This document shows, piece by piece, positions 1,216-41,644 of a stretch of DNA of 43,657 nucleotides (position 1 is the first letter of the stretch; every line of letters begins with the position of its first letter). Under the pieces are notes generated by a model that made no database searches, was not told where the DNA came from, and saw only the letters and a program-made list of their open reading frames with translations. The stretch covers positions 1-43,657 of the forward strand of contig NZ_LWBP01000219.1 of assembly GCF_002078015.1 (NCBI RefSeq). Reading direction: 5' to 3'. This stretch comes from Niastella populi (GTDB lineage: Bacteria; Bacteroidota; Bacteroidia; Chitinophagales; Chitinophagaceae). Position numbers and translations under genes: made by a program.

Positions 1216-4200
1216 CTACTCCTTAACAATCTTCCTCGTAACAACCTCCCCACCACGCTTCACCTGGATGAAATACGTCCCCTGCATATACTTACTTACA
1301 TCTATCCGATGCACGGCGCCTGTCATTCGCGCAACATGCACCACCCTCCCCATTACATCATGTACCACAATCTGCGCCCCGGCGCCATATTGAACAACCA
1401 GCTGATCCTTCACCGGGTTAGGATAAATAACTACCCCCCGCTCCATTTCACTCATCGCTGCCGGCGCTGCCGCCTGCCGCGCAGTCATCAATTGAGTAGC
1501 GCCAATGGTAAAGCTGCCTTCCGGTGCAAAGGCACTCCCTGCATACGCGGCATCTATCGTTTGCACACTCCACACATAATCACCCGGCGGCAATCCTTTC
1601 AGCTTCCATCCCAGGTTCTGGTAGGCATTGCCCAGTGAACTCGTCATGCGCACGCCCGTTGAAATATTCGCATTGGGGAAAATATAGTAATGCCCGTTCG
1701 CGCCCTTTACATATAAGTTATAACTCAGCGCTTTTACCGGCGTTTCGGCATCGGCGCCGGCTGTCCAATTCAACTGTACGCTATCACCCGCCACCTGCGC
1801 CTGTAAACCCGATGGCGCTAATGGCGTATTATTCGTATTCATTGTTACGTTCTTAAACAGGAACGCCACATTGCGCGTATACGCTCCACTATAACCGTTC
1901 AACAACACATCGGTTCTGCCATCATGATCGAAATCGCCCAGTTCTATAGTGCCTTTATTGATGCCGGGTAAATTCAAACTCTCGGGGCTTTTTGTAAACA
2001 CGCCCGTTCCATCGTTCAGGAAAATATTCGTTACCTCGCGCGCTTCACTGCTGCTGCGGCCGGTTAATAATATGTCGTAATCGCCGTCATTGTCCCAGTC
2101 TACAAACGCACTGCCTTTTCCATTACAGTTTTGGCGGTAATTCTGGAAAGTAGCTTTCTCTGTATAATTACCCGTACCATCGTTCAGGTACAACCGGTAA
2201 ATATCATGACTTCCGGCATCGCTGTAACCATCGCCATCGCCGTTCAGCAACATATCGAGGTCGCCATCGGCATCCACATCGGCAAACTGCGAACTGCCCC
2301 AGTGTTTTTGTTTGAACGGAACCGCCTGCTCGGCAAACGTTCCATCCCCATTGTTCTTCCACACTTGTGTATACCGGCGCGATGCGCTGCGGTTCCAGGC
2401 CTGCACACAAAAGTCGATATCCTGGTCATTGTCTATATCAACCCAGCTGGCATCGGGGTCCTGGATGTTCATCGCATTGTTCACCCGGTTCACCGGCGCC
2501 TGCACGCCTGTACTGTTTTGAAAATAGAACTTGTTGGCATTGCCATTTCCTATCATGAAATAATCGGGGTAACCGTTATTGTCCAGATCGGCAATACCCG
2601 CCACCGGCGCATTTACCTGCGGCATGGTTTCCAATGTGAAAAACCCGGTTCCATCGTTGCGCAACAGGCGCGCATAGGGCGCCCAGGCATTGGCGCGGTC
2701 CCACCCGGCAACAATCACATCCAGGTCGCCATCGCCATCCACATCACCGGCGTTTATACCCGGTGTATAGATGCCGGGAATACTTTGACCCGTGGAGGTA
2801 AAATTGCCATGGCCATCATTTTTCATTATGCCGCCTACATAGGGATCAACGCCTGAATAAATAATATCGAGGTCGCCATCGTTGTCGATATCGGCCGACA
2901 ATGATTTCCCGTAATCGAACCCAACGCCCACGCCGGCATATTCAATAGGCGGCTGTGGCGGCGGTATATATGGCCTGTTGAATGCCATCGCTTCATTATA
3001 CGCCATCGGCGATTTTTTATCGCGGTATACCATACCCGCCGGCGTTAGTACGGTGGGCGATTTATAGAACATGCGCCGGGTATCGCCTACCCATTCGTAC
3101 AATGCATAGCGTTCTACAAACGAACAGGTATCGAGCACGTTCAAAAACTTCGCAATGGTCTCCGCCTGATCGGCATAACCGGGCGTACAACAGGTCCAGT
3201 TGGCGCCATTGTTCCATTCGGTGATCCAGAGCGGACGGCCCGTACGGTCGTGTATTGCTTTTAAGCGGTTGTATAATTGTTGCGGTGTTTGTCCGCCCAG
3301 ATAAAAGTGCATGGCCACAAAGTCAACGCGGTAGTTCAATGCATCGGCGCGATCGATAAACGAATACAGCCATTCGAGTCCGCCATCACTGGGTGAAGGC
3401 GATCCGAGGCGCAATCCGCTGCGCATGAGTTCGGGCCACAATGCCAGCGCATCGTCGATGCTCATATTGGCCTGATCGGTACGTTCGGGTTCATTGAACC
3501 CAAGCGCATGGGTGCTTTTCTTTTTATTATTGATATTGCTGAACGCATTCCACCAGCGGTTGTGCCGCATAGGGATGTATTCAACATTGTGTCCGCTTAC
3601 GGCTACATTGTCCCAGTCGTATTGCCAGCTGGCATTGAGCGCTTCGGCGGCATCGCGTCCGCTCGTCCAGCCCTTTTTCGCAACCCAGCGCCAGGGTAGT
3701 ACGCGAACAAACGATACATCGTTGTACAAACCGGCGGGCAGCGAGTCGATAACAAGATCCTGTTTATCGGCAATATATACGCGGCTGTAACCCGTGCCCA
3801 TAGAGTCTTTGGCAAAAGTGGCCATATAGCCTTTTTTCAGCCGGAACGATTTTATGGCATCGTGCATGCCGCCCAGTTCGCCTGCTCGATTATACGTGTA
3901 CATTCCCAACTGCTGTGAAGCGCCGGAGCGGTTCAACCCGTCATATACCTGTAGTGGTTTGTAATCGTGGGGGTGACTGATCACCATGGTTCCCTGCAGG
4001 TATTGTTCTACCCGAATATTGCTATCGATCACCGCTTTTTTGCCATCGACCATTATCTGCGGCAGATACGTATTGGCGAGAACCGAGGGTTTTATATTCG
4101 GAAAGTACAACCATACGTTCTCACTCCGCAGATCGAGCATGGAGCCTTTTAACGGGTTGGCATCACCGGTGATGGTCACCTGCGCATTACCGAACAACAA

Positions 4201-5385
4201 TAATATTTTGTTGGTGATGGCAGCCACCGTATCAGTATAGTTATTGCGAATGAACGGCAGCATGGGCAGCGGTACGCGTTTTATCGAATACGTTTTGCTG
4301 GCGCCATTCTCGGCGGTCACCACAATTTTCATCTGGTTGGTGATATAGGCCGTAACCGGAGCCGCCACGCCGCCGGTATCTGTTATTGTAAAAGTAGCAT
4401 GGGGCGATACGGTGATGGCCGATCGCAGTTGTGCCACCCTGCAATTGATGGGCAGCCACACGCTCGCATTAAGGGGATTAAGCAAACCAACCGATACGTT
4501 GGTGATCTTGTTCTTCTCTCCCACATCGCGCAGCGTTATGGGGTATTGGCCGGAACCGTTCAAACCCTTTACCAGCACGGCCATGGTATCGGACACTTTT
4601 GCGGTGTCCTGCATGGCCACAGGTAAGCCACTTACCAAACTCACAATATCAACCGTTGCGGTGGGCGCCACCTGCAGCGCGCCTTTTAATTGTGTCACCG
4701 TTTTGCCAGGGGTAACGTTTATAAGGGTATGATTGGTTGTATCGATGCTGCCCTCGGTGGTGGAGAGGATGGAATAATCATTGATAAGGCTTACTTCCAA
4801 CTCATCGATCAGCACCTCGAGCGGTGCGGGCAGGGTGGTTGCGGAAGAACCGGTTTTGATGGCGAAGTATACATCCACGAATGCCGAGGTATCGGTTCCC
4901 GGTACTTTAAACACCTTTTTACCGCTGCAGCCATTCATTACGAAGGTGCCGTCGGTATTGGGACCGCAGCCGGCCCAGGTGCTGAAACCGCGCACCACAT
5001 CGCCGTTGTTGTTTGGGGCATAATCGGCGTTGGGATTAGGGGCTATGGTGCTCAGATAAATTTCGCACCAAAAGCTGGCGGCCATACCGGTTTTAAAAGC
5101 GCCATTCACCACATAGGATTTACCTACCTGCAGGGACAGTTTTTGCCAAAAAAGGATATTAGTCCGGTTGGGACTGGTGATGCGCAGGCATCCACCTGCC
5201 CCGGCCGCCGGCGTTTGGGCGGTATAGTTAAACGCATAGGACGCCGGGAATGCGCTACCCTGGTGGTAGACGGTCCACCCCGCGGAATCGCTCATATTAC
5301 CATTCGTTAGTTGTTGCTGCGCAAACAGCGCGGCAACCGGTAATATGGTTAGAAAAAATAATAGACATACATGAACTTTTTTCAT
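1216..5385 (-). CDS. Secreted multidomain glycoside hydrolase (GH128/Asl1-like) with FG-GAP repeats and T9SS sorting domain
   Basis: A 1389-residue exported protein. Residues 1-22 are a signal peptide ending in LFAQ. Residues 25-200 look like a galactose-binding-type beta-sandwich, and 205-370 like Ig-type repeats. Around 560-815 is a TIM-barrel-like region with GFNEPE (about 630) and LWITEWNNG (about 723), the two glutamates expected of Asl1-like/GH128 beta-1,3-glucanases. Seven calcium-type FG-GAP/VCBS repeats (DxDxDGDxD) follow at about 832-1155, then a fibronectin-III-like domain (about 1180-1280). The C-terminal region from VIYPNPVKDQ (about 1318) to the lysine-rich end is a type A T9SS sorting domain. 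Expected to be secreted by T9SS and surface-anchored or released. The substrate (a beta-glucan, perhaps fungal or algal) is inferred from family only. Monocistronic, with its own terminator. Confidence 0.85.
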   Translation of the reverse strand: MKKVHVCLLFFLTILPVAALFAQQQLTNGNMSDSAGWTVYHQGSAFPASYAFNYTAQTPAAGAGGCLRITSPNRTNILFWQKLSLQVGKSYVVNGAFKTGMAASFWCEIYLSTIAPNPNADYAPNNNGDVVRGFSTWAGCGPNTDGTFVMNGCSGKKVFKVPGTDTSAFVDVYFAIKTGSSATTLPAPLEVLIDELEVSLINDYSILSTTEGSIDTTNHTLINVTPGKTVTQLKGALQVAPTATVDIVSLVSGLPVAMQDTAKVSDTMAVLVKGLNGSGQYPITLRDVGEKNKITNVSVGLLNPLNASVWLPINCRVAQLRSAITVSPHATFTITDTGGVAAPVTAYITNQMKIVVTAENGASKTYSIKRVPLPMLPFIRNNYTDTVAAITNKILLLFGNAQVTITGDANPLKGSMLDLRSENVWLYFPNIKPSVLANTYLPQIMVDGKKAVIDSNIRVEQYLQGTMVISHPHDYKPLQVYDGLNRSGASQQLGMYTYNRAGELGGMHDAIKSFRLKKGYMATFAKDSMGTGYSRVYIADKQDLVIDSLPAGLYNDVSFVRVLPWRWVAKKGWTSGRDAAEALNASWQYDWDNVAVSGHNVEYIPMRHNRWWNAFSNINNKKKSTHALGFNEPERTDQANMSIDDALALWPELMRSGLRLGSPSPSDGGLEWLYSFIDRADALNYRVDFVAMHFYLGGQTPQQLYNRLKAIHDRTGRPLWITEWNNGANWTCCTPGYADQAETIAKFLNVLDTCSFVERYALYEWVGDTRRMFYKSPTVLTPAGMVYRDKKSPMAYNEAMAFNRPYIPPPQPPIEYAGVGVGFDYGKSLSADIDNDGDLDIIYSGVDPYVGGIMKNDGHGNFTSTGQSIPGIYTPGINAGDVDGDGDLDVIVAGWDRANAWAPYARLLRNDGTGFFTLETMPQVNAPVAGIADLDNNGYPDYFMIGNGNANKFYFQNSTGVQAPVNRVNNAMNIQDPDASWVDIDNDQDIDFCVQAWNRSASRRYTQVWKNNGDGTFAEQAVPFKQKHWGSSQFADVDADGDLDMLLNGDGDGYSDAGSHDIYRLYLNDGTGNYTEKATFQNYRQNCNGKGSAFVDWDNDGDYDILLTGRSSSEAREVTNIFLNDGTGVFTKSPESLNLPGINKGTIELGDFDHDGRTDVLLNGYSGAYTRNVAFLFKNVTMNTNNTPLAPSGLQAQVAGDSVQLNWTAGADAETPVKALSYNLYVKGANGHYYIFPNANISTGVRMTSSLGNAYQNLGWKLKGLPPGDYVWSVQTIDAAYAGSAFAPEGSFTIGATQLMTARQAAAPAAMSEMERGVVIYPNPVKDQLVVQYGAGAQIVVHDVMGRVVHVARMTGAVHRIDVSKYMQGTYFIQVKRGGEVVTRKIVKE

Positions 5386-15519: not shown

Positions 15520-16404
15520 TTATTTAGTAAACACCAATATCGCAGCGCCGCCTAATTCAATCTGATCGCCATGCTGCAATTCATGCGCTACCCCCGGTAC
15601 ATTCAGCGACTTCACTTTATCATCGGCAGTATAGATCTTCGTTTTGTTGCCGTTTTCGGGCAGCCCGCCCCTGTCGGGGAACAGAAAGAATTTATCAAGC
15701 TGCGGGTTATACATGATGTAGGCATGATTGCGGCTTACATGTAAATTGGCTTCGCCGTTTTGCGCATCGAACGCCGCATCTTCCTTTCCCCAGAACACGA
15801 TATCATTGGTATGAATTCTTCCGCTGGTGAGCTGCGGACTTTTTGTTCTGCCTATATTGAACTTCAACTGCTGCTGCGGGTTCAGTTCGTATTCGGGAAA
15901 CTCGGCTTTTCCTACCAGCACCTGCAGGCGGGCAACGGAGTACTGCTGTACGAAATCCTGCCCGCGCCTGATCACTTCAAGCCCCATAGTGCCATTGGTG
16001 ATGCAATAGTCGGGCACTTTATCTTTTACAATATGATGTTCAAAGAACCAGCCTTCGGAGAGTTGAATGAAATTATTTACCAGCTTGCGCTCGAGATGAT
16101 CTTTGCGGAACATGCCCGGCGTATCGCTGCACAGGGCTACGGCCAGCGTTTCTTCCAGCTCCTTGCTGTTACACAGCATGTATAACCGCAAGCCGGCAAT
16201 GGTATGTCCTTTTTCATCAATATAGGGCTTTAACCCGTTGATGATAAACCGTACGATCTCTTCCCGTTTTGCCCTTGTGGCCGGAATGGATAATGCCGGT
16301 TGCATCCCTGCTGCCACCGGCTTACCGGTGGCCGGCGTGTGTTCACCCTGTTCAGGCCCTCCCGGCGTGGGGTTGGAAAGCAGGCGTTTAAGGAAGTTTT
16401 TCAT
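15520..16404 (-). CDS. FHA-domain protein (distal gene of the kinase/SEDS-PBP cluster)
   Basis: 294 residues. Proline/glycine-rich start, a folded N-terminal region about 45-180 with no recognised family (FIINGLKPYIDEKGH, GWFFEHHIVKD), then an FHA domain about 190-294 with FNIGRTKSP, LHVSRNHAYIMYN (the SRxHA phosphothreonine-binding motif) and NKTKIY. FHA domains bind phosphothreonine, so this should read out the Ser/Thr kinase at 21116-22912. It is last in transcription order, 282 bp beyond the SEDS-PBP gene. The gap contains a low-complexity array, so it may be a separate transcript. The layout (variable N-domain plus C-terminal FHA) resembles actinobacterial FhaA in outline only. Confidence 0.88.
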   Translation of the reverse strand: MKNFLKRLLSNPTPGGPEQGEHTPATGKPVAAGMQPALSIPATRAKREEIVRFIINGLKPYIDEKGHTIAGLRLYMLCNSKELEETLAVALCSDTPGMFRKDHLERKLVNNFIQLSEGWFFEHHIVKDKVPDYCITNGTMGLEVIRRGQDFVQQYSVARLQVLVGKAEFPEYELNPQQQLKFNIGRTKSPQLTSGRIHTNDIVFWGKEDAAFDAQNGEANLHVSRNHAYIMYNPQLDKFFLFPDRGGLPENGNKTKIYTADDKVKSLNVPGVAHELQHGDQIELGGAAILVFTK

Positions 16405-16504
16405 TATTATGATGTATGGTGGTTATTGATACTGTTACGTCTTACTTTATCAGCAAAAAGCCTAAGCAAATTTTTTACGCCTTTCGGTTTTAACTTTCGG
16501 AACC

Positions 16505-16650
16505 CTGTATTCGCTTGCAGCTTGCAGCGTGCAGCTTGCGGCTTGCAGCGTGCAGCTTGCGGCTTGCAGCTTGAAGCTTGAAGCTTGCAGCTGTATTTGC
16601 TTTCAGCTTGCAGCTTGAAGCTTACAGCTGTATTTACTTTCAGCTTCCCT
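16505..16650. repeat. Low-complexity array of GCTTGCAGC / CTGTATTTGC words (array 1)
   Basis: Degenerate tandem words (GCTTGCAGC, GTGCAGCTTGCGG, GCTTGAAGC, CTGTATTTGC) between the FHA and SEDS-PBP genes. The open frames it creates are artefacts of the repetition. Related arrays lie at 20880-21065 (same orientation) and 25680-26005 (inverted). Confidence 0.85.
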
Positions 16651-16686
16651 TCATACCTCGGTGCCTGTCGCTCAACCATATCTCAC

Positions 16687-19600
16687 TTAAAACGATACGA
16701 TGTACCCCCTCCTCTCCAACACCTTCGCAATGGAATTCGCCACCAGCACGGCGTTGGACGAACCCTTCCCCCTTTCTATTCTAATACAGGTTACCGTGCG
16801 CGACTTGCGATCGGGCGTTGGCGCAAAGAACACGTACCAGCCGTCAGATTCTATCTCGCCATTGATCACCCGCTCTGGCGTACCCGTTTTACCGGCCACT
16901 ACCAGGTTCTTTATTTTCTGTTTATACGGCTGATTGCTCTGATCGATCATATACCGGGTGAGGGTACCCGCATACGACGTATCCTCCGTTATTTCAACAC
17001 CTGTGCCCACTGGCTGCTTCAGTCCCGCTTCCTGCAACAGATACCTCGATGGCATCATCACCCCGTTATTGGCAATAGCGCCCGCCATCCGCGCCATAGC
17101 GGCCGGTGTGGAAGTGAGCGTGCTTTGCCCCCAGGCCAGCCCCGAGAACGGACTGCGATAACGGTTCTTGGTGCCCTGCAAACGCGGGTTGTTATATGCC
17201 CGCCGGTCGTGGTTCAATACTTCTTTCCGCCAGAAGGCCAGCTCTTCCGATAACTTTTCCTGGTTCGATGAGGGCGCAAAATCGTACCCGCCGCGCTGAC
17301 TGATATTCATTCCCGTTGCCTGGTACAGCGCAGCCAGCTGATCTTCGAGGTTGTTCTCATTGGCCATGCGAATGAAAAAGATATTGCTCGAATTCACGAT
17401 GGCTTCATGCATATCGACATAATTCACCTTGGGAATGAACGGTTCCTGTTCGGTGGGGTTATCGCGGAAGATCTCGTTGCGATAGATATCGCGGTATTTC
17501 ACTTTGGCGGCATCGGCGCCCATTTTATTAAAGGCGGCCAGGCCGGTCAGTATTTTTGCGGTGGAACCGGGCGCCGTGGCGTACGTCATGCCGAGGTCGC
17601 GGTCGGTTACCGGTTTGGGCAGTTTATTTCTTTCGCGGTCGGGCAGCAGCATCAGGTCGGGCATTTGCAGGTTGGGCAGCGGGTTCAGCGCAGAAGCCAG
17701 CAGGTCGCCCGTGCCCGCATCGAGCACTACCACGGCTATGCGATCATTTTTGAAATTGCTTTTGCGTAAGGAATCCTGGATCTCTTTCTGCAAAGCCGCA
17801 TCGATGGTTAAATGAATATCGCGGTCCTTATGTTTTATTTTTCGCACCGCTTCATTGGTGGTATCGATGCCCGATTGCAGGCTTTCCGCCAGCGGCGAAT
17901 AATCATAACTCACCAGTTTGATGGTCTTTTGCACCGGCCGCGTAAATTTATCGGCCCGGTATTCCGTACTTACATAATCGCGTTTTTCCGGACTGGTGGC
18001 ATAACCGCGCAATGAGGTCAAATGCCGCGCTTCGGCAAAATAACCATTGCTTTGCCCCCAGAACAACCGGGTATTGTAATCGCCCGTCCAGAAGAAAAGG
18101 TCTTCCCCGAACGGATAAAAACGCACCACTCTTTTCTGCACCAGGTTCTGCAACCGGAATGTATCGATACCTGCTGCGAGATAAGCATCCATATGTTGAC
18201 GGATGTCGTTGGGCTCGCTGGTAGCAATGACCAGGCCGTTGCGGTCGTAGATAGAACCGGCTGCCAGCACCCGCGTGAGCTTATCTATCCGCGGGTTGTA
18301 ACTATAAATAGGCAACCCGTTGCGGTTGATAACGCGGGCCGCTTTTACCAAAATCTCTTTACTATGCACTACCTGCACCTGGTACAACTTCACCATGAGC
18401 GCCACAATACCGGAGAGGAAAAATATGATCCCCGTTCCCAGTACAAAATCATAATACCGGCGCAGGTGTCCGGTTTGAATGGCCAGGCCGGGCCGGGAAG
18501 AAATACCGGCTACAATACCCATGGCGGCAAGGTTAACTATAAGCGAGATCTTTCCATAACTCAGGAAGGGAACCGTTACACCCGTCAGGGGCAATAAGCC
18601 TATGGAACCGCCGGCGATCAGCAGGAACTGGATACCCGTGGCAATGGCAATACCGGCGCATAAATAAAAACTGAATGGTTGTCCTGCCCGGCGTGCATGT
18701 AAAAATGAACGGTGAATGAGCATGCCGAACAACAGGAACACGGCCACCAGGCCGAGCCAGCCCAGTTCTTCCCCAATGCTCGGCAGGATCATATCGGTAT
18801 GCGCAGCGGGCATGGTATTGGGAAAACCGCGGCCGGGGCCTTGCCCGGTCAACCCGCCCGAAGCGAGCGTCCAGTAACTATGCGCGAGGTGATCGCCGCC
18901 AAAAACGTCATTATTCCACTGGCTTAACCACATGGCTTTGCGATCGGCAAGGCGGTCGCCGATACCGGGCAACTGATCGCCAAAGGCAAAGGCAGCGATC
19001 ACCAGTAAAACGATAACAGGCGCATCGGCCAGCACGGCAAGGGCGCCATACCATTTTACGGTTTTCACCTGCCGCATTGCAAACATGGTTACAATAACCG
19101 CCGCAAAACTGATGGCGGTGGCCAGCCAGCCCGGAATAAAATTGAGCAGCAGACAATACACGATACCGGCCAGCAGGGTGATCAATAAATTCCCGCGTGC
19201 AATGCTATAGAAAAACAAAAAGGTAAAACACATTACCATGGCCGGCCCCATATCGCCCATTAATAAGTACAACGCCAGCACAAAGCCTACACCCACCAGT
19301 ACGCCAATGCTAACGATAAAACGCCAGCGGATATCCGATAAGTTGCGGATGTTCTCTTCATTGGCGGCAAAGAAACCGGCGAGGAACAACAACAGCAGGT
19401 ACTTGGTTATTTCACTGGGCTGAAAGGTAAAACCGCCGAGCTGGATGTTCACTTTCACCCCGCTGCCTTCCGGACCGGTACCTATCAACAAGGTCAGCAG
19501 CGCCATAGCTATGGCCAGAACGAGCCAGGTGTACCCGCGCAGGCCATACACGCTTTTCTTTTTGAAATTGAACAGCGCATCGAACCACCAGCGGGTATAT

Positions 19601-20706
19601 AATTTACGAATATCGATCAATGCAAAAGCTACAAACCCTGCCAGACCAACTATAACTCCCTGTAATGCCTGTGCTGCATGCAGGGTATCGGTAAGGGGGT
19701 GTTGAATGCTGAAGAGTAATAAGATGGAAATGCCGCATAACAACAGTAACAGCGGCAGTATAAATACATCGGGTTGTTTTTTGCGGAACCATAAAATAAG
19801 GTGGGCCAGGAAGAAAGCCAGGATGCAACCGCCGGCGATGAGCCAGTAGGAAGTTATGAATTCTTCGGGTGTGCGAACCAGCAACACGCCGTCGGCTTTT
19901 ATTTGTGCGTATGCGATGGCGCCGATCAACCTGATCTTATGCGGTTTGCCGGTAAACGTAAACGATTTGTTGCCGGCAAGCTGGGCGCTCCCCTTTCTGC
20001 TCCCGAATTCAAAACCGGGTTGTAAGGGCAATACGCTGTAACCTGAATCCTTTATCAAACCCGTAAACTGAAATTTGCCATCGCTGCCGGTGCGGGCATA
20101 AACCACATGATCGTATAACGAATCTTCATTGGGCGTGGCAATATGTTCGCGCAACTGCACCAGTGTGCCGGCCATGGGTTCGTCCTGGAAAAGAACTCGT
20201 CCGCTTATTTCATATTTTCCGGTGGAAATTTTTACTGTAGAAGGATAATTGACGGGTTCTTTCAATTCCTGCTGATACAAAACCGAATCGAAACCGAGGC
20301 GTTGACGCGAAGCTTCTATGCGGCCCTGAAAATCTATGCCGCCTTCGGGCGATTTCCACGATAGCGGGGCATACAATCCAAATGCGCTTTTATTGATGGA
20401 GCCGAGGTTATCGATATGGCCGGTATTCATTAACCGGGCCGACAGTGAATCAACCAGCAGGTCAACATCGCGTTTGTCGGAGAAATAATTACCGGCGACG
20501 ATTATCTTTTTTAGGGAGTCCCTGTTGATAGCGGCTTCCACTTTTATGGCGCGGCCATTTTGCAGGGCTTCATTGGTCCGGGTTAAACCGGGATATAATG
20601 TAAAGAAGAGTTTTCCAAACAATACCAGCAGTAGTACGGCGGCGCCGGTTAACAATAACCACCCTTCTGTTTTATTAGAATTATATGTACTTCGTGGGGC
20701 GTCCAT
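16687..20706 (-). CDS. SEDS (RodA/FtsW-type) glycan polymerase fused to class B PBP transpeptidase
   Basis: 1339 residues combining two enzymes normally encoded separately. One N-terminal membrane helix (about 17-38), then an extracytoplasmic region with a carboxypeptidase-regulatory-like beta-sandwich (about 164-225: SGRVLFQDEPMAGTLVQLRE, SDGKFQFTGL), then multiple membrane helices (about 275-765) forming the SEDS core. The latter has GGLTGQGPGRGFPNT, AHTDMILPSIGEELGW (Asp about 636 is the expected catalytic Asp) and TVPFLSYGK. After the last helix come the PBP dimerisation segment AAGSIYDRNGLVIATS (about 817) and a complete transpeptidase: STAK (about 1047), SSN (about 1105), KTGT (about 1273). 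It should both polymerise lipid II and crosslink the strand. The usual SYGG reads SYGK here. Next to kinase, phosphatase and FHA genes, so probably phospho-regulated. Confidence 0.92.
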   Translation of the reverse strand: MDAPRSTYNSNKTEGWLLLTGAAVLLLVLFGKLFFTLYPGLTRTNEALQNGRAIKVEAAINRDSLKKIIVAGNYFSDKRDVDLLVDSLSARLMNTGHIDNLGSINKSAFGLYAPLSWKSPEGGIDFQGRIEASRQRLGFDSVLYQQELKEPVNYPSTVKISTGKYEISGRVLFQDEPMAGTLVQLREHIATPNEDSLYDHVVYARTGSDGKFQFTGLIKDSGYSVLPLQPGFEFGSRKGSAQLAGNKSFTFTGKPHKIRLIGAIAYAQIKADGVLLVRTPEEFITSYWLIAGGCILAFFLAHLILWFRKKQPDVFILPLLLLLCGISILLLFSIQHPLTDTLHAAQALQGVIVGLAGFVAFALIDIRKLYTRWWFDALFNFKKKSVYGLRGYTWLVLAIAMALLTLLIGTGPEGSGVKVNIQLGGFTFQPSEITKYLLLLFLAGFFAANEENIRNLSDIRWRFIVSIGVLVGVGFVLALYLLMGDMGPAMVMCFTFLFFYSIARGNLLITLLAGIVYCLLLNFIPGWLATAISFAAVIVTMFAMRQVKTVKWYGALAVLADAPVIVLLVIAAFAFGDQLPGIGDRLADRKAMWLSQWNNDVFGGDHLAHSYWTLASGGLTGQGPGRGFPNTMPAAHTDMILPSIGEELGWLGLVAVFLLFGMLIHRSFLHARRAGQPFSFYLCAGIAIATGIQFLLIAGGSIGLLPLTGVTVPFLSYGKISLIVNLAAMGIVAGISSRPGLAIQTGHLRRYYDFVLGTGIIFFLSGIVALMVKLYQVQVVHSKEILVKAARVINRNGLPIYSYNPRIDKLTRVLAAGSIYDRNGLVIATSEPNDIRQHMDAYLAAGIDTFRLQNLVQKRVVRFYPFGEDLFFWTGDYNTRLFWGQSNGYFAEARHLTSLRGYATSPEKRDYVSTEYRADKFTRPVQKTIKLVSYDYSPLAESLQSGIDTTNEAVRKIKHKDRDIHLTIDAALQKEIQDSLRKSNFKNDRIAVVVLDAGTGDLLASALNPLPNLQMPDLMLLPDRERNKLPKPVTDRDLGMTYATAPGSTAKILTGLAAFNKMGADAAKVKYRDIYRNEIFRDNPTEQEPFIPKVNYVDMHEAIVNSSNIFFIRMANENNLEDQLAALYQATGMNISQRGGYDFAPSSNQEKLSEELAFWRKEVLNHDRRAYNNPRLQGTKNRYRSPFSGLAWGQSTLTSTPAAMARMAGAIANNGVMMPSRYLLQEAGLKQPVGTGVEITEDTSYAGTLTRYMIDQSNQPYKQKIKNLVVAGKTGTPERVINGEIESDGWYVFFAPTPDRKSRTVTCIRIERGKGSSNAVLVANSIAKVLERRGYIVSF

Positions 20707-20855
20707 CCTGAGTTTGTGGTTTATGGTTTGTTGTTTGTGGTTCTTCCAACCCGAGCCTCATAATAACGAGCAGCAGCTTCCATCCTTAGTTTGTGGTTTG
20801 TCGTTTGTTGTTTGTGGTTCTTCCAACCCGAGCCTCATAATAACGAGCAGCAGCT
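20702..20855. repeat. 77-bp tandem duplication spanning the SEDS-PBP start codon
   Basis: Two adjacent copies (20702-20778, 20779-20855), nearly identical, both beginning TCCATCCT and containing TTCTTCCAACCCGAGCCTC. Copy 1 overlaps the ATG at 20704-20706. Copy 2 carries a duplicated ATG at 20781-20783 that opens a roughly 20-codon frame ending upstream of the true start. The duplication may act as a leader or be neutral. Confidence 0.85.
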
Positions 20856-20877
20856 TTCAGATCCTGGATTTTGCTTA

Positions 20878-21070
20878 CAACTGTATTTGTATTCGCTTGC
20901 AGCGTGCGGCTTGTAGCTGTATTTGCCTTTTGTATTTGCTTTCGCCTTTCGGCTGTATTTGCCTTTCAGCTTGCAGCTTACGGCTTGCAGCTTGCAGCTT
21001 GCAGCTGTATTCTGTATTTGCCTTTAGCCTTTAGCCTTTAGCCTGCATTAGCTTGCAGCTGTATTCAAAA
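20878..21070. repeat. Low-complexity array 2 (GCTTGCAGC, TTTGCC, CTGTATTTGC words)
   Basis: Same vocabulary and orientation as array 1, extended with TTTAGCC words and, at the right end, AAACTTATAACTTAC words up to the kinase stop. It separates the kinase gene from the SEDS-PBP gene (409-bp gap). No coding potential. Confidence 0.85.
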
Positions 21071-21115
21071 CTTAAAACTTATAACTTACAACTTAAAACT
21101 TATGAAAACTTATAA

Positions 21116-22912
21116 CTACCTCGTGCCTTTTACAATCAACTGATCAAAAGCTACCGTTTGCGCCCCATCGACCCGCAGGCCGAAACAATTGCCGTAGCCG
21201 CCGGTAAATGGCAACACATTTTCTACTTTATCATTTATATAAAAATAGATCGAGTTGTTTCTTTTTTCAATGCTCAGCGTGTTCATGGCATTATGCTGGT
21301 GAATATTCACCGAGCGCGTCCAGTTGATGATGGGATGCCAGTCGCCATTGGTCATGGCGCCGATGGCATAATACCCGCTGGCGGTGATATAATACACGAA
21401 ATAGGCGTCGCTGTCGGTATTGCCGCAAAAGTTGATGCCATAGGCTTCATCGGGTTCATTGCCCCATTGGGTAGCGCTGGCCGACACGCTGAAGTTGCGT
21501 TGGATATCGAGGTCGAACTTTACGGTGGCATGATAGGTCAGTGAATCGGTGAGTCCTTTGATGATATATTTTCCGCGTTCGAATTTGAACTCGCTGTTCT
21601 CATCTTTACCGGTTTCCCAAATGGTATCGGCGCCACCGCTGAAATCATCGTAATACACGCCGTTGGGCAAACCAACACCCGCATCGTGTGGCGCAGCCGG
21701 TGCGGCGGCACTGGCAACTTCCACCAGTTCGCTATCCGGTTCGGGTGTTGTATGCACCGCGGGTGTTACCAGTGATTTATTATCTGGTGCGGTGCCTGAT
21801 TTACGTTTTACCTGTGCAACGGATACCGAATCGACCGGCAGCACAGTGGCGGCTTCCTCTTCGGCCGACTTAGCACTTTTCTTATGCGGGAACACTGCCC
21901 ACATGCCCATCATGAATGCGCTGAACAACAACACGCCCATTATGGTAAACACAATTTCCTTTTTTTTGCCTGCCACTACTTTGGGCACCGCCATGGGTTT
22001 GTTGAAAACCTGCGTAAGCTTTTTTTCTTTGGGCGGCGCCGGTAATGTTTTTTTCCTGAACTGGCCCTGTGCATTTTCAATGGCCGCTTTTTGCAACTGC
22101 GCCCGCACCTGCGCGGTATCGCTTAAGCGGTACATGGCCTGCTTCGTCAGCAATGCATGCAGCAGTTGCAGCAGGCTGGGCGGCAGATACCGGTCATCGG
22201 GCAGTACCGGTTCGGGTACCGGCGATTCAATTACGCGGTTGATATGCCACAACAGGTCTTCATCGTGATAGGCAAACGGTACGGTGCCGGTGAGGCATTC
22301 ATACAGTACAATACCGAGTGAATAGTAATCGGTGGGCGTTGATACGGTCTTTGAATGATTGAACTGTTCAGGCGATGCATACTCATAGGTAAGCATGGAA
22401 GAACCGGTAACCGTATTGGTTTGCTCGCGCAATTTGGCAATGCCGAAATCGGTAAGCAGGAACTGCAGTTCGCCGTTGGGCATGCGGCGGTACATGATGT
22501 TCTCGGGTTTTATATCGCGGTGCACAACGCCTTTGGCATGGATGGCTTCCAGCGCATCGGTCATATGCTGCGCCAGTTGGATCACCGTATCTACTTCGAG
22601 CGTACCGCGCTCTTTCAGCAGGCGGCGTACATCGCCGCCCTCGATCAGCTGCATCACGATATACGGCAGTTCCGCATCGAGATGCACATCGACGATCTTA
22701 ACAATATGATCGTGCTGGATAGATTTCATGATCTCCGACTCGCGCTGGAAACGGCGCAGCGTGTCGGCATCGGTGTTAAAGGCAAAGTGTTTGATGGCAA
22801 CGAGGTTACCCGAAACCAGGTGCCTTGCTTTAAGCACGCGGGCATTGCCCCTGCCTATTTCACCCAGGATCTCGTATCCTTTAAAATATTCTCTGAAAAT
22901 GGATGTTGCCAT
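21116..22912 (-). CDS. Transmembrane Ser/Thr protein kinase with LamG-like outer domain
   Basis: 598 residues. Kinase domain about 13-270: GEIGRGNARVLKARH (glycine loop, with a degenerate third glycine), VAIKHF, HRDIKPENIM (about 131), DFGIAK (about 155), YASPEQF, DYYSLGIVLYECLTG. A basic juxtamembrane stretch follows, one membrane helix (about 320-343, FTIMGVLLFSAFMMGMWAVF), an alanine/threonine-rich linker, and an outer domain (about 414-598) resembling concanavalin/LamG or DUF1080-type beta-sandwiches (YYDDFSGG...YGINFCGN...NSIYFYINDK...FDQLIVKG). The outer domain could sense a glycan, where actinobacterial PknB uses PASTA repeats; this is inference. Only 2 bp separate it from the phosphatase gene upstream, so the two are co-translated. 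Confidence 0.93.
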   Translation of the reverse strand: MATSIFREYFKGYEILGEIGRGNARVLKARHLVSGNLVAIKHFAFNTDADTLRRFQRESEIMKSIQHDHIVKIVDVHLDAELPYIVMQLIEGGDVRRLLKERGTLEVDTVIQLAQHMTDALEAIHAKGVVHRDIKPENIMYRRMPNGELQFLLTDFGIAKLREQTNTVTGSSMLTYEYASPEQFNHSKTVSTPTDYYSLGIVLYECLTGTVPFAYHDEDLLWHINRVIESPVPEPVLPDDRYLPPSLLQLLHALLTKQAMYRLSDTAQVRAQLQKAAIENAQGQFRKKTLPAPPKEKKLTQVFNKPMAVPKVVAGKKKEIVFTIMGVLLFSAFMMGMWAVFPHKKSAKSAEEEAATVLPVDSVSVAQVKRKSGTAPDNKSLVTPAVHTTPEPDSELVEVASAAAPAAPHDAGVGLPNGVYYDDFSGGADTIWETGKDENSEFKFERGKYIIKGLTDSLTYHATVKFDLDIQRNFSVSASATQWGNEPDEAYGINFCGNTDSDAYFVYYITASGYYAIGAMTNGDWHPIINWTRSVNIHQHNAMNTLSIEKRNNSIYFYINDKVENVLPFTGGYGNCFGLRVDGAQTVAFDQLIVKGTR

Positions 22913-22914
22913 AT

Positions 22915-24399
22915 TTATTGTATCTCCGTATTGGTCATTTGTACAGAGAGACCTTTATTTGTAGTGTCAGGTTTAACCAGGTTACTCACAGGATACTTAA
23001 CGTTTTCAAAAAATGTGTTCTCCAATTTTACATGAACCGGTATGCTCACCTTTATGCCGGTCTCAAACCCTTTCAGCCGCAGGTTTTTGATGACAATTGT
23101 ATCGCCTGCCCTGCCTGACGATTTGTTAATTTCTACTGCCGCAAAATGATTTGCCTTTTCTTTCGCCGGCATCAGCAGCAGGTTGTTGCCTACACTATCG
23201 GCAAAATGCTGTACATCGGTGATGTTCTTCGGGCCCGTCAGCCGCATGGTGTCCGGCGCTTTTTCCACAACAGGTCCCGATGGCGCTGCATGCTGGCCGC
23301 TGAAAATAGATGAAGGCATTTTGCTGCCGGTATCTTCACCGGCTGGGGCGATCGTTGCTTCATTCCTGCCTGGCCTTCCATTAGCTTTTTCCTTTTGCGA
23401 GAAGAAGAACCAGCAACTGACCGCCAGTAACACAATTACAAGGACGTTCCATTTCACCCATTTGTTACCACCGCCTGTTTTTTTAACAGTTGTGCTTTTC
23501 GCTGAAGGTTGTGTGGTGGTTTCAGTGGCAGGCTGTTCAGGCGGTGCGCTGTTCTTGTCTGTTGATGGAGGTGAAGCAATTGCGCCGTTTTTTGTTTTAA
23601 CGGTCTTTTTAACTTTTGTACCGTTAGTTGGCTGCACGGTTTGTTTGGTGCGGTTGTTCTTCAACAGCACAACGGTTATATTATCGTGGCCACCTGCTTC
23701 ATTGGCAAGCGCGATGATGTTATTGACCTTTGTATTCAATGCAGCGCCGGAGGCCAGGATCTCCGCTATTTGTCTGGCGGTAACCATATCTGTAAGTCCG
23801 TCGCTGCACAACAGCAGTCCGTCACCCGGCAGCAATTCCTCCCGGCCGTATTGCATAAAATCATCGTCATCGATGCGGTGAATGGTAGAACCTACTTCAC
23901 GCAGGATCTGGTTACGCTGCGGATGGCTCATGGCTTCGCGTTCGGTTATTTCACCGGCATCTTCGCGCAGCCCAACGAATGAATGGTCTTTGGTAAGTTT
24001 TTGCAATACGCCTTTGCGGTAACGGTACATGCGCGTATCGCCCACGTGCACAAAATAAACCGCGCCGGCGCCTGCATCGGCGACGGCCGCTGTAAGCACA
24101 CAGCACATTTCGCTGTACTTCGGGTTTTGCGCGCGCTCTTCGGCAATACGATTGTTGGCGAAGATCACCGCTTCGCGCAACATGGTAAGCGTATCGCCTT
24201 TTGGCGTTTGCATGTACTGGTCGATAGCTTCCCTGGCAATAGCCGCCGCCCTTTTTCCTCCTGCATACCCACCTACCCCGTCAACCACAACCAGCAACGC
24301 CTGATCGGGCGTCCATAACGGCCGGCAGGTATAGGTATCCTCATTTTCCGTCCGTCGCATGCCGGGATGCGTATTGCCACTGATCAAAATAGTTTTCAT
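22915..24399 (-). CDS. PP2C-family Ser/Thr phosphatase with membrane anchor and outer domain
   Basis: 494 residues. PP2C domain about 1-245 with RRTENEDTY, VVDGVGGYAGG (metal-binding Asp about 37), LLCSDGLTDMV and GGHDNITVVLL. Then a Thr/Lys-rich linker, one membrane helix (about 320-338, NVLVIVLLAVSCWFFF) and an outer region of about 150 residues with no recognised family (GRAGDTIVIKNLRLKGFETG, VKLENTFFENVKYPVSNLVK). Like mycobacterial PstP it is a membrane-anchored partner phosphatase for the adjacent kinase. The stop (22915) is 2 bp from the kinase ATG. One base separates it from the upstream microgene. Confidence 0.93.
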   Translation of the reverse strand: MKTILISGNTHPGMRRTENEDTYTCRPLWTPDQALLVVVDGVGGYAGGKRAAAIAREAIDQYMQTPKGDTLTMLREAVIFANNRIAEERAQNPKYSEMCCVLTAAVADAGAGAVYFVHVGDTRMYRYRKGVLQKLTKDHSFVGLREDAGEITEREAMSHPQRNQILREVGSTIHRIDDDDFMQYGREELLPGDGLLLCSDGLTDMVTARQIAEILASGAALNTKVNNIIALANEAGGHDNITVVLLKNNRTKQTVQPTNGTKVKKTVKTKNGAIASPPSTDKNSAPPEQPATETTTQPSAKSTTVKKTGGGNKWVKWNVLVIVLLAVSCWFFFSQKEKANGRPGRNEATIAPAGEDTGSKMPSSIFSGQHAAPSGPVVEKAPDTMRLTGPKNITDVQHFADSVGNNLLLMPAKEKANHFAAVEINKSSGRAGDTIVIKNLRLKGFETGIKVSIPVHVKLENTFFENVKYPVSNLVKPDTTNKGLSVQMTNTEIQ

Positions 24400-24400
24400 A

Positions 24401-24484
24401 TTATCGTGGCAGGTTTTTAAAATGCCGAATTAATAAAACGATCACAAATACGAACAACGCTATGGATGAGATGGTGTTGATCAT
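24401..24484 (-). CDS. 27-residue single-pass membrane microprotein
   Basis: ATG at 24484 and stop at 24401 give a 27-residue peptide with one hydrophobic helix (INTISSIALFVFVIVLLIRH) and a basic tail (RHFKNLPR). It fits tightly between the FHA-like gene (stop at 24493, 8 bp) and the PP2C gene (ATG 1 bp after its stop), as expected of a real operon member. No homologue is recognised. Possible roles are a small regulator of the kinase, phosphatase or SEDS-PBP membrane complex, or a translational coupler. Chance cannot be excluded at this length. Confidence 0.55.
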   Translation of the reverse strand: MINTISSIALFVFVIVLLIRHFKNLPR

Positions 24485-24492
24485 GGAATTGT

Positions 24493-25518
24493 TTACAACT
24501 GTTTAAATGTAAGCGTTACCATGCCGTTCAGCAATACCTGGCTTTTGTCGCGCAGATCGAACCAGCGGGGGTTGCCGGCTTCACTTTTCTCTATCACCGT
24601 TTCGTTTACCCGGGTTTCGTTATTACTGAAGGAAGCGATCTGGAATGAGCGCTGCGCTTCATTCCACCTTATGCGTGCATGCGGGTTGCTGACGAACCCC
24701 GATTCTATCAACAGGTAATTGCTGTAGCCCAGGTTCTCCGGTTCCTTTCGCGCGATCACGATTTCGGTATCTTTCATAATATACACCGCATCTTTACTGG
24801 TATCGGCGGTATAGTATTCAATACGGGCCAAACCGGCATCGGCCTTGCGGGCCGTGATTTGCGTGGTGGCGTTATTGGTTACGGCAACATGGGTGATGTT
24901 TAATTCGGGATTGAACTTTACCGTGAAGGTGCCGTTCTCGGCAAAATGTAAATGGCGCAGCACATCGAGGTTGATATCCATTTTATCAAAAACATTGGTA
25001 GCTTTTGATTTCATGGTCACTTTGGCGGTATTATGCCGGTCGCCGCCGCCGCTGCCGATAGGTTTCAGTCCGGTAAGCATCCCGATAACGCGTACATCTT
25101 CCACCGTTATTTTTTCCTGGTTGAAATCGGTGCCTGGTGCAAACCGGAAATGCCAGTGAAACGACACGGGCGACAGTTCATCGTAATTCTTTTTATAACT
25201 TTTGAGCTTGAGGTAAAATGCTTTCAGCGCTTCTTTTACAATGATGGGAAGTGATGATAACCGCTCTTCGTACACATCGGGGTGAAGAATGACCAGGAAA
25301 TGCATGTTGAATAATAAACTTTTACCAACCGACTCCCGTTTGCATGAATTGTCGAAGCAGTCGAGCAATTCTTTCAGGATAACGTTGTTGGTGACCGGTC
25401 CGTTAGCGGCACGCTGGTCATTGCTTTCCGGTAGTATTATTGATTTGAGGGCGGAAAAAAAATCCCCTGACTTTTTCTTCATGGAATTCCCTGTTTTAAC
25501 CTGGTTTACGGCGATCAT
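24493..25518 (-). CDS. FHA-like protein, first gene of the kinase/phosphatase operon
   Basis: 341 residues from ATG 25518 (a second ATG at residue 13, MKKKSGDFF, is possible). The N-terminal part (about 25-235) has no recognised family: a helical segment (FLVILHPDVYEERLSSLP) then beta-rich sequence ending in THVAVTNNATTQ. Residues about 246-341 look like a divergent FHA domain: TEIVIARKE, FVSNPHARIRWNEAQRSF (SxxHARI, the phosphothreonine-recognition motif), FSNNETRVNET, then LLNGMVTLTF. It leads the minus-strand operon with the microgene, phosphatase and kinase. Expected to be a phosphothreonine-binding adaptor. Divergence of the glycine-arginine loop lowers confidence in the FHA call somewhat. 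Confidence 0.75.
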   Translation of the reverse strand: MIAVNQVKTGNSMKKKSGDFFSALKSIILPESNDQRAANGPVTNNVILKELLDCFDNSCKRESVGKSLLFNMHFLVILHPDVYEERLSSLPIIVKEALKAFYLKLKSYKKNYDELSPVSFHWHFRFAPGTDFNQEKITVEDVRVIGMLTGLKPIGSGGGDRHNTAKVTMKSKATNVFDKMDINLDVLRHLHFAENGTFTVKFNPELNITHVAVTNNATTQITARKADAGLARIEYYTADTSKDAVYIMKDTEIVIARKEPENLGYSNYLLIESGFVSNPHARIRWNEAQRSFQIASFSNNETRVNETVIEKSEAGNPRWFDLRDKSQVLLNGMVTLTFKQL

Positions 25519-25674: not shown

Positions 25675-26010
25675 AAAGAGGCTGCAAGCTGAAAGGCAAA
25701 TACAGCTGCAAGCTGCAAGCCGTAAGCTGAAAGCGAATACAGCCGAAGGCGGAAAGCCTAAGGCCTAAGGCAATACAGCTGCAAGCTGCAAGCCGTAAGC
25801 TGCAAGCGAATACAGCCTAAGGCGGAAAGCCTAAGGCGGAAAGCCTAAGGCCTAAGGCAAATACAAAATACAGCTGCAAGCCGTAAGCCGTAAGCTGCAA
25901 GCTGAAAGGCAAATACAGCCGAAAGGCGAAAGGCGAAAGCAAATACAAAAGGCAAATACAGCTACAAGCCGCACGCTGCAAGCCAAATACAGCCGAAAGG
26001 CGAAGGCTAT
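25675..26010. repeat. Low-complexity array 3 (inverted: GCTGCAAGC, GGCAAATACAG, GGAAAGCCTAAGG words)
   Basis: The longest of the three arrays, written in the opposite orientation to arrays 1 and 2. Several words recur many times (CAAGCTGCAAGC, AAATACAGC, CCTAAGGC). It lies upstream of the FHA-like operon. 26140-26205 continues with CATTGACCATTCACC words. No protein-coding gene is seen in 25519-26211. Confidence 0.85.
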
Positions 26011-26107
26011 CGGTACTTCTGAATTTATACGCTCAATTTTACTTGCTCACGGCTTTAGCCTTAAGCTATCGACGCTCGTTGCCTCGTTGCCTTTTTTGCC
26101 TTTACAT

Positions 26108-40270: not shown

Positions 40271-41644
40271 TTATTGGTTAATGTCTTTATTTAAAACAAT
40301 TGTAGTATCGGTTTGTACCAACCGCATCCCATCCCTCTTTATCCACAACTCTTTTATTTTATTAGCAGCCTCTTCCGGCGAAATACGGATATACTTATAA
40401 AAATCCTTTGTTCGTTTGTGGCCGCTGATCTTCATTATCAGCTCAACCGGTGTGCCAGCCAGGAATTCATTGGTGCAGAATGACCGGCGGGCAGTATGCG
40501 AAGTGATCCAGTCGTATTTGGGTTTTATGACCTCGATACTTTTGTTTCCTTTTTTGTAGGAGAATTTAATGGAGCGGTTTAGTCCAGCCAGTTTGCCGAT
40601 GGTTTTAATGTGGCGGTTAAATTCAGGATTGGTAAGTGCGGGTATGCGCTCACGGAACTGGCAAGTGAAGATATGCTTGGCTTCCTCGCGTAAGGGAATA
40701 ATAACCCAGTGATCTGATTTTTCCTGTTTCTTGTATAACATATCAATTTGCAGATCTTCGGGCTTTAAGGTAGAGAAATCGGAGAACCGCAAGCCGGTAA
40801 GACAGCCCAGCACAAACAAATCGCGGTATTCGATAAGATGAGGATGGGCAGATAGATCAGTTTGGTAAATGGCTATTATTTCCTGGTGACTTAAATAAAT
40901 AGCATCGCATTCTTCTTCGGGTATTTTGAAATCGGTGAGGTCGATGGGTGTAATGATCTTTCTTTTAACCCGGTCTTTTATAAAACCGCGCAGATGCTTG
41001 ATGGCTTTACCAATGGTATTCAGCTTTAAACCCGTCAACACCTCTTGGCGACGCATATGCACATGCTCAAAGGTGAGGTAGTCAATAAAGTCGTGGTAGA
41101 AATTAAAATCAAAACTGGCAAAGAAAATTTTCTCCTGGCGGTATTTTTCAAATGCCTGTAGATGTGCCTTTACATTGCCATATACGGTCAGTGTTGCCTT
41201 GCTTACTTTTCGTTCTTTGGTATTAATGTAATCATCAAACTGGTAGTAGATATCCTGCTTAGCTTCTTTCTTTGCTGCTTCCTGTTTGGCAACAGCGCTT
41301 ATGCGCTCATCGAGAACACTTAAATCCAGTGTAGGAGTAAAAGCCTTTTTTACAAACGAACCTTTGTCGGTAATCTGTTTGCGGGTAGCTTCAGCAACCA
41401 GGTCCTCTACTAATCTTTTAATACGAAGTAATTCATCATTCAATTTTACCGGACTACCATATTCAGCTGGTAGCTGTGGTGACACGCGTAATTGTTTGGG
41501 ATGCCAGTACTGTGGTGGAATGTAAATGCCAGTGTTTAGTAGTGTACGGTTCGTTGCACTAAAGCAGTACAGAAAAAAAATCGGTGCAGTTCCGTCTTTT
41601 CTAACTCTCTTGGCTCTGCAAATTGGCTTGATCGGTAACAACAT
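40271..41644 (-). CDS. Tyrosine recombinase/integrase (Bacteroidota type)
   Basis: 457 residues. N-terminal arm-binding domain (about 1-90; IKPICRAKRVRKDGTAPIFF), SAM-like core-binding domain (about 125-235; YQFDDYINTKERKVSKATLT), and a catalytic domain with LTGLRFSDFSTL (Arg about 285), SHTARRSFCTN (HxxR about 380) and GHKRTKDFYKYIR (His about 409, nucleophile Tyr about 416). Catalyses site-specific recombination of an integrative element. The ORF6N remnant lies downstream on the same strand. A tRNA 3'-end-like sequence 160 bp upstream (41804-41828) is a candidate attachment site, though its orientation suggests it may belong to a different insertion. Confidence 0.92.
   Translation of the reverse strand: MLLPIKPICRAKRVRKDGTAPIFFLYCFSATNRTLLNTGIYIPPQYWHPKQLRVSPQLPAEYGSPVKLNDELLRIKRLVEDLVAEATRKQITDKGSFVKKAFTPTLDLSVLDERISAVAKQEAAKKEAKQDIYYQFDDYINTKERKVSKATLTVYGNVKAHLQAFEKYRQEKIFFASFDFNFYHDFIDYLTFEHVHMRRQEVLTGLKLNTIGKAIKHLRGFIKDRVKRKIITPIDLTDFKIPEEECDAIYLSHQEIIAIYQTDLSAHPHLIEYRDLFVLGCLTGLRFSDFSTLKPEDLQIDMLYKKQEKSDHWVIIPLREEAKHIFTCQFRERIPALTNPEFNRHIKTIGKLAGLNRSIKFSYKKGNKSIEVIKPKYDWITSHTARRSFCTNEFLAGTPVELIMKISGHKRTKDFYKYIRISPEEAANKIKELWIKRDGMRLVQTDTTIVLNKDINQ

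Follow-up and report, generated by a model that had tools for sequence, protein, structure and literature searches.

Does a member of the Bacteroidota carry a counterpart of the actinobacterial locus in which cell-wall synthase genes lie together with genes for Ser/Thr protein kinases, a PP2C phosphatase, and FHA proteins? The question is posed by six minus-strand genes within 15520–25518 of a 43,657-nucleotide stretch of Niastella populi DNA (RefSeq assembly GCF_002078015.1, contig NZ_LWBP01000219.1), referred to below as the window. In order of transcription, they encode an FHA protein (FHA-A), a membrane microprotein, a PP2C phosphatase, a Ser/Thr protein kinase, a single chain combining a SEDS polymerase with a transpeptidase, and a second FHA protein (FHA-B). 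An initial annotation, made from the DNA letters, had proposed this set, and all six genes proved to be real. Their sequences make it probable that the single-chain protein is a dedicated peptidoglycan synthase, the third in the genome, controlled by Ser/Thr phosphorylation, and that the cluster is homologous, in Bacteroidota, to the actinobacterial fhaA-pstP-rodA-pbpA-pknA/B locus.

A Third Synthase Made as One Polypeptide

The synthase gene (16687–20706, minus strand) is a single frame of 1339 residues, in agreement with the earlier claim that the equivalents of rodA and pbpA are one gene here. The first membrane helix (residues 17–35) is followed by approximately 245 residues, predicted to be periplasmic, with a weak match to CarboxypepD_reg (15 bits, cut-off 32.3); an alignment of this N-terminal domain alone retrieves the fused protein in other genomes. 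The SEDS helices start at about residue 283 and the last helix spans residues 754–772, with the transpeptidase after it; as domains, SEDS covers approximately 300–745 and the transpeptidase approximately 746–1339. Both domains are present in all of the best 120 of 1433 homologues.

The residues expected of active enzymes are in place. In the SEDS part, H636-T637-D638 (HTD), which includes the catalytic aspartate, is invariant in 15 of 15 aligned sequences, as are S1048/K1051 (SxxK), S1106-S1107-N1108 (SxN), and K1273/G1275 (KTG) of the transpeptidase. Counted by eye on the alignment, D638 corresponds to D262 of E. coli RodA. According to one report (PMC6207328), the D262A substitution abolishes polymerization, and a man-made RodA-linker-PBP2 chain with the same domain order is active in E. 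coli. The likeness to that engineered fusion lies in the order of domains on one chain; unlike the window synthase, it has a man-made linker, lacks the N-terminal domain, and is not linked to a kinase.

Three SEDS proteins are encoded in the 8.6 Mb draft genome. The first shares a dcw-type cluster with an FtsI-like transpeptidase; the second adjoins an MreB-type group (mreBCD/mrdA/rodA-type genes) and a PBP2-like transpeptidase, the gene names being our reading of the sequences of the nearby frames. The separate rodA/mrdA and ftsW/ftsI genes that the initial annotation expected are thus present. Because divisome-type and Rod-type synthase genes are located elsewhere in the genome, the locus protein is, on sequence grounds, a third synthase beside them. 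It has the SEDS aspartate and the transpeptidase SxxK, SxN, and KTG motifs in common with the RodA-PBP2 and FtsW-FtsI pairs and differs from them in being covalently joined, in being the third copy in the genome, and in belonging to a different SEDS group.

The Gene Neighborhood Is Conserved

A GTDB scan of named genomes gave 248 stretches with relatives of the synthase. The best 80 were kept, and their record titles are mainly of Chitinophagaceae, Spirosomaceae, and Sphingobacteriaceae. Neighboring genes were sought with profiles at an E value of 1e-4, those for the kinase and PP2C having been built from the same loci. At least 6.5 kb of upstream sequence was available in 66 of the 80 loci, with FHA-A in 62, PP2C in 64, and a kinase in 53; at least 3 kb downstream was available in 73, of which 71 have FHA-B. 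Where both flanks were present (64 loci), one or more kinases accompanied FHA-A, PP2C, and FHA-B in 59, and a kinase was found in 62. The profile search did not find FHA-B in L025 or FHA-A in L043 and L044. The initial annotation had named two outcomes that would speak against it, the lack of a conserved neighborhood in relatives and kinase and SEDS-PBP genes that always lie apart; neither was seen. The place of the kinase varies. Niastella has one, between PP2C and the synthase; the Spirosoma group mostly has two in the same interval; in the Sphingobacteriaceae-Segetibacter group, the kinase is outside FHA-A or FHA-B.

The synthase is patchily distributed. Of 392 Bacteroidota genomes drawn evenly, 17 gave a match and 15 were counted as having the fused type, defined by a strong match in an open frame of 1222 residues or more (G200 and G206 matched weakly and were not counted); for nine of the 15, profiles run on the neighborhood confirmed the fused type. 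In the class containing G215 and G050, five of 117 genomes have the fused synthase, and 21 other matching genomes have short, weak matches only. Closer to the window, the nearest named relatives of the synthase are from Niastella (85–86% identity, best segments up to 89%), and a close FHA-A (at least 89% identity) is present in nine of ten genomes of the genus, its own included, the exception being a genome that is 61% complete. The cluster can be plasmid-carried, since all of it is annotated on a 137 kb Spirosoma oryzicola plasmid typed as non-mobilizable (NZ_CP089545.1, 67287–86510); a plasmid search with the transpeptidase half matched this species only. A second, divergent fused SEDS-transpeptidase of 1307 residues was noted in genome G167 (L151, 5165–9088), with a kinase-like frame approximately 4 kb upstream.

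Probable Kinship with the Actinobacterial Locus

In a published account (PMC6554272), the actinobacterial fhaA-fhaB-pstP-rodA-pbpA-pknA-pknB genes, which encode FHA, PP2C, SEDS, transpeptidase, and kinase proteins, are linked. Four actinobacterial records bear out the initial claim that the parts list of the window matches this locus. In Tsukamurella, the order is FhaA (annotated as DUF3662 + FHA), FhaB, RodA, PBP, and two kinases, with PP2C placed between FhaB and RodA by profile. Profiles found PP2C, RodA, PBP, and two kinases in order in Nocardia, Nonomuraea, and Arthrobacter, with the FhaA N-terminal domain upstream in all three; FhaB was covered in Tsukamurella only, and in Arthrobacter rodA is divided between two frames. 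The window shares the order FHA - PP2C - SEDS - PBP with these records, and the trees below place its SEDS part and theirs to one side of a branch. It differs in that SEDS and transpeptidase form one chain, to which an N-terminal domain is added, and in that PASTA gives no match, one FHA gene is at the opposite end, a microprotein gene is present in addition, and the same bacterium has separate MreB-type RodA/PBP2 genes. A clostridial operon from Monoglobus (L133) has FHA, SEDS, and PBP genes in a row and a SEDS protein on the same tree side; here SEDS and PBP are separate, and no kinase or phosphatase is annotated in 16 kb.

Two unrooted SEDS trees were built. The first had 36 rows (18 fused proteins, three actinobacterial RodA, the one clostridial SEDS from the FHA-SEDS-PBP operon, and 14 RodA/FtsW proteins, including those of the same genome), and the fused, actinobacterial RodA, and clostridial sequences were split from the 14 RodA/FtsW rows with support of 100/99.6. 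Topology tests on these rows rejected a grouping of the fused proteins with Bacteroidota RodA (p = 0.004) and were borderline for Bacteroidota FtsW (p = 0.045). The second tree had 47 rows after five were dropped (four fused, one RodA). All 30 fused SEDS sequences (from Bacteroidota and, by name, Bryobacteraceae, Thermoanaerobaculia, and Acidobacteriota) formed one group (100/100), again on one side of a branch with actinobacterial RodA and clostridial SEDS (100/99). In a transpeptidase tree of 40 rows, the 30 fused proteins also formed one group (100/100). A strict motif rule had removed four outgroup rows from an earlier version of that tree; the redone one lost a single E. coli row, in which no motif pair was found. 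The best transpeptidase match in the PDB was PbpA at 54.6 bits, little above PBP2 prime at 51.3 bits.

Because the FHA - PP2C - SEDS - PBP order, the SEDS grouping, and the FhaA_N domain of one relative (below) coincide, the module is best read as sharing common descent with the actinobacterial fhaA-pstP-rodA-pbpA-pknB locus rather than as a convergent assembly. The initial annotation had left convergence and transfer side by side; its convergent half is disfavored by the SEDS grouping (100/99, unrooted) and by FhaA_N in L121, and transfer between phyla is possible.

FHA Proteins, Kinase, and Phosphatase

FHA-A (24493–25518, minus strand, 341 residues) is FhaA-like, with a putative N-terminal α/β domain and a C-terminal FHA fold that was recognized by a fold search of that half; part of its canonical phosphothreonine-binding motif is lost. 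FHA-B (15520–16404, minus strand, 294 residues) has a C-terminal canonical FHA domain with conserved GR and SRxH, the residues by which FHA domains bind phosphothreonine. Since FHA-A lacks the SRxH arginine and FHA-B keeps both elements, FHA-B would be the better candidate for a phosphothreonine binder. The FhaA_N domain exceeded the Pfam cut-off in FHA-A of L121, a relative belonging to a different class of the phylum (27.4 bits, cut-off 25), and matched weakly in FHA-A of L125 (17.7 bits). FHA-B homologues with an N-terminal Swt1-like HEPN domain were observed in L125 (12478–13752) and L124 (12434–13804).

The kinase (21116–22912, minus strand, 598 residues) consists of a kinase domain (13–266), a membrane helix (approximately 320–338), and an extracytoplasmic domain (approximately 410–598) predicted at the level of fold to be a lectin-like jelly roll. 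PASTA gave no Pfam match in this kinase or in eight kinases of relatives, and the NCBIfam PASTA-kinase model matched the kinase part only, at 204.8 bits against a cut-off of 450. The initial annotation had described the outer domain as LamG-like instead of PASTA: the departure from PASTA stands and the jelly-roll fold is in keeping with the description, whereas LamG itself found no match by sequence. Genome-wide, Pfam matched two kinases and two PP2Cs only.

The PP2C phosphatase (22915–24399, minus strand, 494 residues) has its catalytic domain followed by a membrane helix (approximately 315–333) and a C-terminal extracytoplasmic part. In L125, phosphatase and synthase are one protein: a single frame of 1384 residues comprises PP2C (10–261), SEDS, and transpeptidase, and by our reading of the sequence PP2C is followed by a membrane helix. 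Precomputed Pfam assignments gave the same three domains in five of the 120 homologues listed for this protein, and a motif scan found most, not all, of the PP2C motifs in each of the five. Four of the five could be placed on the tree and fell in two separate spots, so that the joint appears to have arisen at least twice or to have been lost several times. This covalent joint is the strongest indication from sequence that phosphatase and synthase work together. At 603–3116 of L125, approximately 5 kb upstream of the fusion gene, a kinase is fused to WD40 β-propeller repeats.

A Conserved Membrane Microprotein

The gap between the FHA-A and PP2C genes holds an open reading frame (24401–24484, minus strand) for a single-pass membrane microprotein of 27 residues, MINTISSIALFVFVIVLLIRHFKNLPR. 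A motif rule found it at this place in 69 of 71 loci, the window included (68 of 71 by a looser earlier rule), the exceptions being L031 and L051; the same rule was satisfied by 52 of 2960 random stretches, a rate not strictly matched because the locus stretches vary in length. The proteins have 23–36 residues, and 54 of the 69 have 27 or 32. The ratio of nonsynonymous to synonymous differences per site (pN/pS), taken over 21 anchored codons in pairs less than 30% apart, was 0.16 (eight sequences, 28 pairs), 0.20 (19 sequences, 66 pairs), and 0.19 (34 sequences, 40 pairs) in three clades. Shifted-frame controls gave 0.69–0.76 in one frame and, in the other, values above 3 or no synonymous change. 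The microprotein thus shows both conservation and purifying selection. Its likely role is that of a small membrane subunit. A comparable frame directly follows FHA-A in other lineages (27 residues in L121–L123, 30 in L125, 22 in L126); L124 has only a 19-residue frame without ATG at this place. No gene is entered at this place in the Spirosoma oryzicola record, whose gene table is incomplete.

Proposed Working and Alternative Explanations

We propose that the kinase would sample extracellular glycan through its lectin-like domain and phosphorylate cytoplasmic threonines of the synthase or its partners. The canonical FHA-B and the FhaA-like FHA-A could dock on these phosphosites or serve the complex as scaffolds, and PP2C, anchored in the membrane, would reset the phosphorylation state. 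The SEDS part would polymerize lipid II and the attached transpeptidase would cross-link the product, with polymerase and cross-linker held at 1:1, and the microprotein may act as a small membrane subunit. We infer that phosphorylation switches the synthase and that its use is conditional. More tentatively, and with somewhat less than even confidence, the single-chain SEDS-transpeptidases of Bacteroidota and Acidobacteriota might constitute a monophyletic, widespread class that serves as a phosphorylation-controlled third cell-wall machine, whose Bacteroidota core would include an unrecognized membrane microprotein of 22–36 residues, encoded directly after the FhaA-like gene and belonging to either the synthase or the kinase-phosphatase pair as an obligate regulatory subunit.

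Several observations weigh against a dedicated synthase homologous to the actinobacterial one, and some of them, namely the FtsW-leaning scores, the borderline FtsW test, the transpeptidase tree, and the FHA-A profile result, would suit a convergent assembly in which an ordinary Bacteroidota FtsW/RodA-PBP pair was fused and later gained unrelated kinase, PP2C, and FHA genes. In an unrooted tree, the 100/99 branch equally describes standard RodA and FtsW grouping together; the closest partner of the fused clade has no clear support (64/40 in the 36-row tree), and the actinobacterial and clostridial sequences pair at 89/70 in the 47-row tree. Generic models rate the fused SEDS closer to FtsW (162.8 bits) than to RodA (136.7 bits), solved structures do the same (97 versus 62 bits), and the test against Bacteroidota FtsW was borderline, as noted. 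In the plasmid search, the top non-Bacteroidota SEDS was clostridial (114 bits), and the Bacilli Listeria and Rossellomorea (102) also scored higher than Arthrobacter (86) or Nocardia (80). In the transpeptidase tree, no positive link to PbpA emerged, the kinship test neither supporting nor rejecting one (p = 0.30). The N-terminal domain of FHA-A in the window's clade was not significantly related to actinobacterial FhaA by profile, with no FhaA_N match at E 1 or better in 30 members of that clade; we dropped the direct assignment and kept it as a lead through L121. The same clade lacks the SRxH arginine (SNPH here, SREH in L121). Some clusters are incomplete: L030 has FHA-B only, and L045 has no partner within 7.5 kb. 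In the 20 kb covered, profiles found neither kinase nor PP2C in L121–L123, and neither kinase, PP2C, nor FHA-A in L124, in both cases with a crude choice of frames in G+C-rich DNA. Against convergence stand the grouping of the fused SEDS with actinobacterial RodA and clostridial SEDS, FhaA_N in L121, and the relative gene order common to the four actinobacterial records, and we consider it improbable.

A second alternative accepts the homology and has phosphorylation act chiefly on other targets, the synthase being a mere neighbor or minor client. With only two Pkinase matches in the genome, one kinase could serve many targets, and kinase number and place differ among clades. In L121–L123, moreover, profiles found no kinase beside the synthase. 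The linkage in 59 of 64 loci and the in-frame PP2C-synthase fusion in two separate lineages argue the other way, and we hold this explanation to be unlikely, if less so than convergence. An anti-phage defense system was suggested by matches of the kinase to PADLOC PD-T4-6 models (up to 208 bits). Such a match is expected of any kinase in the superfamily, the other four proteins searched had no PADLOC match, and the conserved partner is a cell-wall synthase; defense was rejected as the main account of the locus and strikes us as very improbable indeed.

A narrow literature search brought up no paper that deals with natural SEDS-PBP fusions or with the locus in Bacteroidota, which is weak evidence of absence, and natural fusions may have been mentioned elsewhere. 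Specialists should be surprised by the phylum, by the synthase being a single chain, by its fusion to a phosphatase, and by a microprotein hidden in the locus. If the favored reading of a phosphorylation-controlled third synthase is true, kinase-linked SEDS synthases are no peculiarity of actinobacteria; they belong to a module that occurs in several phyla, in this case among Gram-negative bacteria with MreB-type and divisome-type synthases as well. With two kinases detected in the genome and polymerase and transpeptidase covalently kept at 1:1, the locus would offer a simple setting in which to study how Ser/Thr phosphorylation turns SEDS activity on or off. The PP2C-synthase chain would allow this link between phosphorylation and SEDS activity to be tested on a single purified protein, and the microprotein provides a new handle on the locus.

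Gene Spacing and Other Features of the Window

From the coordinates, the gaps between the FHA-A, microprotein, PP2C, and kinase genes are 8, 1, and 2 nucleotides, which suggests that these four lie on one transcript. The spacers between kinase and synthase and between synthase and FHA-B are laden with repeats. Imperfect repeats built on AAATACAGCTGCAAGCTGCAAGC occur at 16504–16648, 20870–21060, and 25681–26014, flanking the synthase gene on both sides and lying upstream of FHA-A. A 90-residue frame at 16407–16679 overlaps these intergenic repeats and was rejected as a gene. Two direct repeats of 77 nucleotides, 95% alike, are found at 20699–20852, directly upstream of the synthase start. Approximately 15 kb from the locus, 40271–41644 (minus strand) encodes a tyrosine recombinase that has a SAM-like domain and may point to a mobile element. 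At 1216–5385 (minus strand) lies the gene for a 1389-residue protein that combines a glycosyl hydrolase core with FG-GAP repeats and a Por secretion tail.

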